Positions 7,387-23,016 of a stretch of 64,000 bases of DNA are shown here, piece after piece (within the stretch, counting starts at the first letter, position 1; each line of letters opens with the position of its first letter). Source of the stretch: Azonexus fungiphilus. GTDB taxonomy: Bacteria; Pseudomonadota; Gammaproteobacteria; Burkholderiales; Rhodocyclaceae. The position numbers and the translations under genes were made by a program. The stretch is taken from the NCBI RefSeq assembly GCF_003634965.1, contig NZ_RBXP01000011.1, positions 372,001 to 436,000 of the forward strand, written 5' to 3'. The notes under the pieces are model-generated. The model saw nothing but the letters and a program-made list of their open reading frames with translations. It did no database searches and was not told the origin of the DNA.

Positions 7387-7477
7387 GGAGAGGTGGATGA
7401 GCGGTTTAAGTCGCACGCCTGGAAAGCGTGTGTGGGTTAATAGCCCACCGCGGGTTCGAATCCCGCCCTCTCCGCCA
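7387..7477 (+). tRNA. serX: tRNA-Ser(GGA)
   Basis: A 91 nt class II tRNA including an encoded CCA. The acceptor arms GGAGAGG (7387-7393) and CCTCTCC (7467-7473) pair. The anticodon stem CACGC/GCGTG encloses CTGGAAA, with anticodon GGA at 7421-7423. A long variable arm and a TTCGAAT T-loop are present. Its 3' end is the integration site of the adjacent mobile elements; the gene remains complete. The symbol is by analogy to the E. coli GGA isoacceptor. Confidence 0.95.
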
Positions 7478-7478
7478 G
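7463..7478 (+). repeat. att core, left (tRNA 3' end)
   Basis: The 16 bp ending CTCCGCCAG is the tRNA-Ser 3' end plus one base. It is identical to 23001-23016, and the inner 13 bp are repeated at 18994-19006. Confidence 0.85.
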
Positions 7479-7491
7479 GACACCTTGAACG

Positions 7492-7514
7492 ACGGCCCTT
7501 TTCGGGCCGTTTTT
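7492..7514 (+). terminator. Terminator after tRNA-Ser
   Basis: ACGGCCC, a 5-base loop and GGGCCGT are followed by a T-tract. A related hairpin follows each of the other two att cores (19020 and 23029). Confidence 0.8.
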
Positions 7515-7521
7515 CATTTCC

Positions 7522-7540
7522 ACCCATCACCTGACCCATC
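7522..7540 (+). repeat. Paired ACCCATC repeat, left end of element A
   Basis: ACCCATC at 7522-7528 and 7534-7540, 12 bp apart, starts 56 bp after the att core (core at 7466). The same pair occurs at 17092, 18851, 19050 and 22861. It is a candidate arm-type binding site for the integrase. Confidence 0.6.
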
Positions 7541-7672
7541 CTTTTCGGTGCTATGTAGTGAGATGGTGTGATCCGCAGCGTTCTGTGTTGCTGGCCCAAG
7601 CTGGGATAAGTGCTCGCCAAAATTCATATACGCAGATAGCATCGGCCCAATGTACCTAGAGAAAGAACTTGC

Positions 7673-21163: not shown

Positions 21164-21195
21164 TTATTTCATAAGAATCGTGCAGTGGCAGCCTA

Positions 21196-22773
21196 TCAGG
21201 CTGCTTCTTCGATTTCCTCTTGTTGCTCAATTGCCAACTGGTGGCGCGTCCATTCCTGTTCGATGTTCGGATTCTCGCGAATCTGTTGTTCGATACGCAG
21301 GGTTTCTCGGTAGTCATGGGCGGCGGCAGCCATGGTCCAATGAGTTTCAATTCCCAGCGTCTCCAATTCCTTGCGAATCTGCTCAAGATTTAGCCGGAAG
21401 AATTCCTTGCGCGGATTCACCTTGTTCATTTGTTGGCGTAGGAAATGCCGATGTAGGGTCTTTTCCAGCCCAGGGGCATCGTCACTGAAAATCATGGCGT
21501 GAACATCGAACTCGAAGGGAACGCTGGCATCGCCCAATTCACGTACGCGATCCTGAGGTTCCAGCCGTCGAGTCATGCCGATCTTGAATACCTCTTCACC
21601 AAAGGAGCCGATATTGGAGATTACATAGACATGGCCGGTCCGGGTCTGCTGCGCCATGGACAAGGCTCGTTGATTTTTCTCCTCGGCGGCTTGCAGTTTG
21701 GCTTCGAGGTCGCGTAGCTTTGCCTCGTACTCTGCTTTTTGCGCATCACTGGCGGCGGCAACTTGCAGCTGTACCTTCTCCATCGCCTTCTTGATTGTCT
21801 CTTCCTCCTTGGCTGCTTCCTTGATGGCCCGTTCGTATTCCTTTCGGGCTTTCTCTTCTTCACGCATCTGCTCGCGCAGTTGCCGCTGTTCTTCTCGTTC
21901 TTGATCCTTGAGGGCGTTCGCCGTTGCAGCCCACTTGAGTTCGTTCAGACGAGCCGCCAAGTATTCATCACTGATCCGGGCATTACGGAACGCAGCCCCG
22001 TTGTAATTGACCATGGAGTAGGCGTCGCGAATCTCCTGCTCTAATTTCCCATGGTTATCGGCCTTGCTACGAGACAAGATGGAATCCACCTTGCCGTTGA
22101 ACGCATCGACCACGAAGCGAATAGCGGTCTCTTTGCGATTGGCCTCAACGTATTCGCAGGTGGCCGCTCGTCCCGCTTTCACCAGAGAACGGCTTGTGTC
22201 ACGGGCAAGCTTGAGTTCCTTCCCTGCCTCGGTGTAGCCGAATTCCTCGGCCAAATCGTCGAGCAGACTGTAGGTGGGAACAATGTAGGCATCGCCATAA
22301 CCCTCGATGATGTTCTTCATCGCTTGAGCGGTGTCCGTAAACTCCTTGGCGCGGCTCATTGCTGTATAGGCGTCACCAGCGATTTCTTCTGCCCGTTGTT
22401 TGGCTGAGGCAATAATGCGGTCTGCCTCGGCTCCTGCTGCGGCAAACCGTAGGTCAGCTTGCTCGGCCTTCGTCTTGGCTGCTTGGTTTGCCTCCTGACG
22501 TTCCTTGGCAGCATCAAGTTTTGCTTGTGCCAGCGTGTCGGCAGCTTCACCGAGAATATCCTTTGCCCGGGCCTCCGCATCGGCAATCCCCTGATACTTG
22601 GCTAATCCTTCAAGCTTGGAAAGCAGTTCGGCACGAGTACGCTCAAGGCCGCTAATTTGCTCGTCTCTCTGTCGCAGCGTCGCAGACAGGTCGCTATTTG
22701 CCTTGTCGGCTGCCGATTTCTTCCGCCAGAGAAAGATGAGGCCGATGATGGCTACAATCAGAAGAATTTCCAT
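21196..22773 (-). CDS. DUF4041 and T5orf172 (GIY-YIG) nuclease-like protein
   Basis: 525 aa from the ATG at 22773. A single membrane helix (MEILLIVAIIGLIFLW) is followed by coiled coil, the DUF4041-type central region (around AKEFTDTAQAMKNIIEGYGDAYIVPTYSLLDDLAEEFGY), another long charged coiled coil and a C-terminal GIY-YIG-like T5orf172 domain: GHVYVISNIG, VFKIGMTRR, RVRELGD and a Glu/Asn pair in LEKTLHRHF and NPRKEFFRL. It is likely a membrane-tethered endonuclease. First gene of the element B operon, 32 bp before the CoiA-like gene. Proteins of this type occur beside defence genes; target unknown. Confidence 0.82.
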   Translation of the reverse strand: MEILLIVAIIGLIFLWRKKSAADKANSDLSATLRQRDEQISGLERTRAELLSKLEGLAKYQGIADAEARAKDILGEAADTLAQAKLDAAKERQEANQAAKTKAEQADLRFAAAGAEADRIIASAKQRAEEIAGDAYTAMSRAKEFTDTAQAMKNIIEGYGDAYIVPTYSLLDDLAEEFGYTEAGKELKLARDTSRSLVKAGRAATCEYVEANRKETAIRFVVDAFNGKVDSILSRSKADNHGKLEQEIRDAYSMVNYNGAAFRNARISDEYLAARLNELKWAATANALKDQEREEQRQLREQMREEEKARKEYERAIKEAAKEEETIKKAMEKVQLQVAAASDAQKAEYEAKLRDLEAKLQAAEEKNQRALSMAQQTRTGHVYVISNIGSFGEEVFKIGMTRRLEPQDRVRELGDASVPFEFDVHAMIFSDDAPGLEKTLHRHFLRQQMNKVNPRKEFFRLNLEQIRKELETLGIETHWTMAAAAHDYRETLRIEQQIRENPNIEQEWTRHQLAIEQQEEIEEAA

Positions 22774-22860
22774 GTCGTACTCGTTTGGTATTCGAATACG
22801 CAATAGTAATAAATATTGATGACGGTGGGTGGAGGTAGTTATGAGAGGGGCAGTTCATCA

Positions 22861-22879
22861 ACCCATCACCTGACCCATC
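22861..22879 (+). repeat. Paired ACCCATC repeat, right end of element B
   Basis: ACCCATC at 22861-22867 and 22873-22879, starting 143 bp before the core at 23004. Confidence 0.6.
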
Positions 22880-23000
22880 AAGTCTGGCGCTACGTTGTGA
22901 GACGCTATTGGACTGAGCGATAATTGCAATGTTGGAGGCTTGCAATCAAGGGCATCGCTGGTGAGAGCAGGGGAGACGTGCTGAGACTTGCTTCAAGTGG

Positions 23001-23016
23001 CCGCCCTCTCCGCCAG
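23001..23016 (+). repeat. att core, right (outer junction)
   Basis: 16 bp identical to the tRNA-Ser 3' end at 7463-7478, and preceded by CTTCAAGTGG, which also precedes the internal core. Core-type chromosome sequence resumes after it. Confidence 0.85.

Follow-up and report, generated by a model that had tools for sequence, protein, structure and literature searches.

Two tandem elements at a tRNA-Ser gene

The stretch analysed here (the window) comprises 64,000 nucleotides of contig NZ_RBXP01000011.1 of Azonexus fungiphilus. At the 3' end of its tRNA-Ser(GGA) gene (7387..7477, +; ARAGORN), the integration target, lie two adjoining elements, designated A and B, both bounded by copies of a core and both carrying, inside each end, a pair of ACCCATC repeats that resemble the arm-type sites bound by P4-like tyrosine integrases. 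Element A measures 11,528 bp from core to core (7466 to 18994) and encodes such an integrase; element B measures 4,010 bp (18994 to 23004) and encodes none. From sequence comparison we consider it probable that A is an integrative element encoding its own integrase, of the P4-like tyrosine type, and that B is a passenger, resembling a cis-mobilizable element (CIME), that could be excised by the integrase of A.

The core CCCTCTCCGCCAG occurs without mismatch at 7466..7478, where the tRNA 3' end forms the left attachment site (attL) of A, at 18994..19006, the A/B junction, and at 23004..23016, the right attachment site (attR) of B, all on the forward strand; seven other matches contain one or two mismatches. 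The arm pair ACCCATC-N5-ACCCATC, with its 12-bp period, is exact at four places on the same strand, namely on the left (7522..7540) and right (18851..18869) of A and on the left (19050..19068) and right (22861..22879) of B. The two elements have identical geometry, with 56 bp between core and left arms (7522-7466 and 19050-18994) and 143 bp between right arms and core (18994-18851 and 23004-22861). These positions and distances had been claimed in a preliminary description of this DNA, and so had three further features that we find as described: the left ends of A and B are alike (85% identity across 95 ungapped bases), GCTTCAAGTGG directly precedes both right cores, and the sole integrase found in the window is that of A (15853..17109, −). 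The middle core, with A's right arms on one side and B's left arms on the other, has attP-like geometry. The left end of A (7466..7570, +) consists of the core, a terminator-like hairpin and the arm pair; the hairpin and the T's that follow it, recognized by eye, belong to a conserved left end that is homologous between A, B and three other genomes, G105, G082 and G230 (G, C and L numbers are our handles for genomes, contigs and loci).

Allowing up to two mismatches, the pattern ACCCATCNNNTNACCCATC has five matches in the window against 0.05 expected, a number reached by 0 of 100 shuffles, and its exact form has only four copies in the 3,546,071-base genome, all in the ends of A and B, with zero control matches. 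Chance or low complexity as the source of the repeats is therefore rejected. The fifth match, unmentioned in the preliminary description, is an arm pair with one mismatch at 17092..17110 (+) that covers the start codon of the integrase gene; it persists there although this start lies ~1.9 kb from A's right core, and we propose that it is an old right-arm pair and a candidate autoregulatory site. The GC content is 53.4% in A and 54.1% in B, and 68.8 and 67.1% in the host flanks.

The 418-aa (amino acid) integrase of A matches Arm-DNA-bind_3 (PF13356), Phage_int_M (PF22022) and Phage_integrase (PF00589), its arm-binding, core-binding and catalytic domains, all above cut-offs, and is the one match across the whole window of a hidden Markov model built from 64 of 66 integrase matches (duplicates included). 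A lies at a tRNA 3' end, with that end duplicated in the core at 18994, and looks autonomous. An AlpA-family protein (14442..14669, −) is a candidate excisionase or regulator. From left to right, the remaining genes encode a 322-aa protein with a weak, below-cut-off Pfam match to HEPN_RiboL-PSP (7673..8641, +), a 5'-nucleotidase family protein (PADLOC PDC-S08; 8651..9571, −) that is 83% identical to its counterpart in G082, an HTH_3 regulator (12211..12516, −), a uracil-DNA glycosylase-like protein (12458..13267, +), an AAA_25 ATPase resembling replication helicases or primases (13342..14469, −) and, beyond the integrase, a DUF6932/PDC-M63A-like protein (17386..17877, +), the first gene in A's cargo slot, with a 322-aa partner (17874..18842, +). 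General scans of the open reading frames (ORFs) of A and B turned up no capsid or packaging family, no dedicated satellite test being made, and no conjugation family turned up for A in the scans made. Between 11295 and 11985, overlapping ORFs on both strands have proline/glycine-rich translations that appear mirror-like by eye, which suggests a small inverted-repeat element within A.

B holds three main ORFs, all on the reverse strand: a 109-aa ORF with no family (19197..19526), a 535-aa protein with no significant Pfam or PADLOC family (19556..21163; best match a sub-threshold helix-turn-helix, E 0.044), 84% identical to a homolog in G377 that has no such ends nearby, and a homolog of SNIPE/PD-Lambda-1 (21196..22803). 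The last matches DUF4041 and, at its C-terminus, the GIY-YIG-type T5orf172/MUG113 nuclease domain (PF13250, PF10544 and PF13455; PADLOC PD-Lambda-1, E 1.1e-113), has a hydrophobic stretch near its N-terminus when the translation is read by eye, a candidate membrane anchor, and is likely a phage-defence gene. A Pfam scan found no integrase among the three ORFs and, with two of them lacking a Pfam family at 1e-3 and the third SNIPE-like, no transfer gene (relaxase or type IV secretion system). At 8708-12789 of L222 (G144), another SNIPE homolog lies ~1 kb away from counterparts of two cargo genes of A, the DUF6932 gene (49%) and its 322-aa partner (55%); the cargo of A and B may thus form part of one defence neighbourhood.

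Recurrence of the arm layout beside related integrases

The preliminary description had proposed a search for the same arms beside related integrases in other genomes, and they do recur there, at the same distances and at tRNA-Ser genes. For the right end, one genome for each of 84,980 species was scanned for two ACCCATC followed by the core TCTCCGCCA at a gap of 112-142. The scan returned 24 loci, two of which (L052 and L057) were set aside as repetitive low-complexity coding DNA. The remaining 22, which include two with the same sequence (L036 and L042), without exception hold their arms at 126-128 bp (19 loci) or 137-138 bp (three) from a tRNA-Ser-type core; in L059 four arms stand in a row, the nearest pair at 126. 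Record titles place most of these loci in Alpha- and Betaproteobacteria; the rest include a Nevskia and, as metagenome bins, one record each of Bryobacterales and Planctomycetota. An integrase homolog is found in 17 of the 22, each with a match that starts no more than ~80 bp from the arms and is oriented away from the core. As to the others, a contig end lies near the beginning of L039 and L051, and the stretch retrieved cuts off L042, whose genome does have an integrase. In L037 there is a short integrase-like ORF, and in L043 no integrase within 2.8 kb. Scanning the family gave six right-end matches in five of 395 genomes, one match (G187, at the start of a contig) departing from the usual spacing with a gap of 124; viral contigs gave three, of which L150 departs from it as well (gap 135) and lacks an integrase match.

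Left ends are spaced just as regularly. In a first set of 26 genomes, 18 gave 21 rows, every one with the arms at 42-44 or 54-56 bp from the core within an allowed range of 29-59 (G344 and G403 share one record, G395 and G401 one sequence); in the family, 15 of 395 genomes gave 17 rows, all at 43-44 bp within an allowed range of 34-59. In the first set, the core of 17 of 20 loci lies at a tRNA-Ser gene with anticodon GGA, CGA, GCT or TGA, and in the family six of ten opened loci have a tRNA gene there. One of the six is a tRNA-Asp gene (19084-19160 of L243, in G038), where an ACCCATC-type left end without tRNA-Ser suggests a change of target. The gaps form two groups on either side, ~12 bp apart on the left and ~11 bp apart on the right, a step at which helical turn and repeat unit are indistinguishable. 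The MarR-gene flank had a match in 17 of 60 genomes, most of them weak, with no tRNA within the loci examined, and the empty site was therefore checked from the upstream side: among 22 tRNA-Ser rows of the same genus, a pair follows the core within 124 bases in a single case, G385, which has an element there, and in L174 and L175, where the upstream gene also matches, no arm pair follows the tRNA-Ser core. In two loci of the same genus, L180 and L186, the tRNA-Ser gene is followed at a similar distance by three AACCCAA repeats with a 12-bp period, by eye the same layout with another arm motif.

The arm repeats appear to track the class of integrase. For 28 related integrases that were not assigned to ACCCATC, a different 7-mer, exactly repeated with a 12-bp period, occurs near the start in 13 (shuffled mean 0.1, maximum 1), a repeat matching at six of seven positions in seven (shuffled mean 1.8), and no such repeat in eight; several of these repeats, such as CAACTAT in L028 and GACTATC in L033, lie ~128 bp from the core CTCCGCCA. 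In the arm-binding domain, F28 is present in a fraction of 0.86 of ACCCATC users versus 0.04 of the others (Fisher p 1.5e-9, from a hand-entered table with no correction for relatedness) and D59 in 0.91 versus 0.30. Five loci (L038, L044, L053, L058 and L151) have an integrase start codon that is covered by the right arm pair itself, in the register of the window's fifth pair.

The two-sided A/B junction is unseen elsewhere: the right arms-core-left arms pattern has zero matches in viral contigs (the one-genome-per-species set was not searched for it), and exact left arms follow the core in none of the 24 loci of the right-end scan. Tandem arrangements with an element of another integrase class occur in G105 and likely also in G008.

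Homology of the ends and the origin of B

With arm pairs and distances recurring beside related integrases and tRNA-Ser genes, comparison best supports the reading of the preliminary description, that of two tandem elements with shared integrase recognition. Homology links the left ends of A, B, G105 and G082 (scores 30-51; shuffle maxima 15-20), that of B scoring 47 with A, 43 with G105 and 30 with G082. B keeps two flanking att sites, with cores at 18994 and 23004 and arms at 19050 and 22861, at the spacing of integrase-bearing elements.

Several observations weigh against shared recognition or against B as an active passenger. The ends of G385 are homologous to none of the others (left-end scores 9-12), and the right ends of A and B have no detectable homology from arms to core (score 16; shuffles 10.1 +/- 1.9, maximum 17); since the segment between is non-homologous, the likeness of the two right ends is limited to the arms, the core and the short stretch before the core. 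The start-codon pair carries one mismatch in A and also in G105, whose integrase is 92% identical to that of A, and at the G082 (71%) and G410 (67%) integrases no such pair is found at up to three mismatches. This imperfect conservation weakens the case for autorepression. As a unit, B was found at no other site among the opened loci of its homologs: the seven other sites of the SNIPE homolog (eight of 297 genomes including this one) have no arm pair in the 12-18 kb opened, and the 11 other sites of the 535-aa protein (12 of 390 genomes including this one), viewed to 1.5 kb except in three cases, lack both an exact pair and a core within 1.5 kb, a lone two-mismatch arm pair lying near the homolog in L141. 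Of the 11 ACCCATC elements with both ends on one contig (G401, G409 C62, G399 C2, G412, G406, G344, G082, G105, G385, A and B), ten have an integrase, which leaves B as a single case. Finally, of 33 left ends, an integrase lies downstream of 11 and is absent from ten, including B, over 10-40 kb or as far as the right end, the other 12 being too near a contig end or split between contigs to be judged. Loss and decay of the integrase are thus frequent, and B may be a well-preserved relic.

The strongest of the alternatives, though we regard it as doubtful, is that B is a dead relic: once an autonomous element, it would have lost its integrase, would stand in tandem by history only and would keep its ends because little time has passed. 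In its favour, nine integrase-less left ends besides that of B (G230, two in G101, G100, G038, G399 C8, G409 C21, and G400 C144 and C208) have no right end recognizable at up to three arm and two core mismatches, a sub-threshold match in G100 reusing the left arms themselves. The preliminary description had named repeats without an inserted element in related genomes as evidence against its own reading of shared integrase recognition; such repeats were met in a weak form only, as these left ends lacking both integrase and recognizable right end, and they look like relics of insertions. The case closest to A is in L238 (G230, 9772-10800), where a left end at tRNA-Ser(CGA) equals A's at 97 of 107 positions and adjoins a 97%-identical 5'-nucleotidase gene, with a transposase-like ORF (by eye) nearby and neither integrase nor right end in 10.7 kb; it is probably a relic of A's lineage in another genus. 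The relic reading also agrees with the description of CIMEs as decayed integrative and conjugative or mobilizable elements (PMC5704250). Against it, B is intact at both ends, where arm pairs and cores are exact and the spacing is the usual one; its two large genes form long open frames, and a search of ORFs of at least 60 aa (E 1e-3) detects no integrase fragment in B, unlike at the right end of G396, which has a short integrase-like ORF beside it. The two readings overlap, in that a relic with good ends might still be excisable.

A small two-gene unit, which looks like a BrnT/BrnA toxin-antitoxin pair, is enclosed in L239 (G101, 3796-4796) by two identical ACCCATC-type left ends 993 bp apart at tRNA-Ser(CGA), with no integrase in ~36 kb downstream.

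It is also conceivable, if unlikely, that B is moved by a non-resident helper integrase like that of G105 and stands beside A by coincidence at a shared hotspot. From right arms to core, B is homologous to G105 (score 35; shuffle maximum 17) and not to A, whose right segment has no homology to those of B, G105, G082, G385 or L151 (scores 10-16; maxima 15-19). Moreover, tRNA-Ser sites gather tandem elements of other integrases. The 4.3-kb G105 element, which consists of a left end, the integrase, an AAA_15/AAA_21 ATPase gene of a kind present in several defence systems, and a right end, itself stands in tandem behind an element with a 43%-identical integrase; a MobA/MobL relaxase gene upstream of it (9610-10359 of L060) probably belongs to that neighbour. 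Speaking against this view, the G105 integrase is 92% identical to that of A overall and 94% in the arm-binding domain, so that A's own integrase should read G105-type ends. The comparison with G105 also bears on how A arose. Upstream of the integrase, the window and G105 are alike by eye to ~17315 and then differ in cargo; from this and from the homologies of the ends, A therefore appears to have gained cargo and a different right end between integrase and attR while keeping the old arm pair at the start codon, and B would represent G105-type ends without the integrase.

The explanations are not mutually exclusive, and the weakest, that the repeats are host or tRNA-associated regulatory repeats (for example IHF sites, terminators or repetitive extragenic palindromic sequences) rather than arm sites, agrees with the terminator-like hairpin adjoining the left-side pairs and is highly improbable given four exact pattern copies in the genome, a pair after only one of 22 same-genus tRNA-Ser rows (the one with an element), fixed core distances and adjacency to integrase starts across genomes, and related integrases with different repeats in the same layout.

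Predicted mobility and relation to known systems

Under the reading we favour, A as an integrative element and B as its passenger, the N-terminal domain of the integrase would read the paired ACCCATC arms, which lie 44 bp inward of the left core and ~127 bp inward of the right core, and cleavage of the core at the tRNA-Ser 3' end would fall to the catalytic part. The 4.0-kb B, which has no integrase, would carry complete ends of A's type on both sides, whether retained or acquired by assembly. Because the three cores are identical and the middle junction is armed on both sides like an attP, any two cores could recombine, and A's integrase, assisted by the AlpA-like factor of A and by host bending proteins, would excise or insert A alone, B alone or A+B. 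By analogy with integrases that control their own genes, the fifth pair, at the start codon, may allow the integrase to repress its own synthesis.

Integrase-less genomic islands are common, and the enzyme that moves them is often unclear. Here the arm motif and its spacing tie an orphan island to a specific class of integrase, and the same layout occurs with other motifs beside related integrases. If the predicted binding is true, sequence alone could suffice to match orphan islands with helper integrases, and one could trace how a putative membrane-bound anti-phage nuclease spreads as cargo of such passengers. Among the open-access matches listed, no title or abstract opening names an ACCCATC arm motif for P4-like integrases, and we found no account among them of an arm motif with two fixed distances and overlap with the integrase start; PMC8978831 was rejected as an earlier report, the letters occurring there in primers only.

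Autorepression by an integrase has precedents. The attP of ICEMlSymR7A spans 283 bp with five arm-type motifs of consensus TGKTGGTATC, and IntS bound to it is said to stop intS transcription (PMC11963761); here the arms form two pairs of 12-bp period, and several relatives have the right pair across the integrase start codon. Likewise, KplE1 IntS (PMC2951348) and PAI I536 IntI (PMC7286903) repress their own genes, IntS through overlap of promoter and att site, whereas the integrase start of A is ~1.9 kb from its right core.

The layout of B resembles that of two groups of integrase-less islands found in tandem with other elements. The ICESt1-related elements of Streptococcus thermophilus, studied by Pavlovic and colleagues in 2004, are reportedly an example of CIMEs. 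A CIME retains attL and attR, lacks genes for integration and transfer and stands in tandem with an integrase-bearing element (PMC5704250); B, with its two att sites, no such genes and A beside it, agrees with this description at the sequence level. It differs in that the identity and spacing of the arm pairs can be followed at base level, in the small P4-like neighbour and in the SNIPE-homolog cargo. The Dehalococcoides ssrA islands are also in tandem at one RNA gene, and the 15 among them that lack an integration module have been suggested to move with their neighbours (PMC3146451). They are comparable in arrangement and in having integrase-less members, and differ in enzyme, a serine recombinase there and a tyrosine integrase with arm-type sites here. 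To our knowledge, arm sites are not part of the serine recombinase kind. As regards the cargo, B's homolog shares with SNIPE/PD-Lambda-1 the DUF4041 domain and the C-terminal T5orf172/MUG113 domain and, by eye, may also have its hydrophobic N-terminus (PMC13190303), the differences being that the defence activity of B's protein is only predicted and that it sits on an integrase-less element.

More speculatively, the ACCCATC layout could constitute an open docking code, under which any integrase of the ACCCATC class could insert and excise integrase-less cassettes whose left pair stands at 44 bp and whose right pair stands at ~127 bp. The tRNA-Ser loci would then form a shared, integron-like place of exchange for defence genes; B would be a complete example, and in A and G105 cargo and right end would have been exchanged as one. 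We hold this extension to be tentative and rather improbable. The nearest parallel for such a code may be the CALIN cassette arrays, which also hold cargo without an integrase and depend on one encoded elsewhere (PMC11389934), although their attC cassettes and integron integrases constitute a different recombination system.

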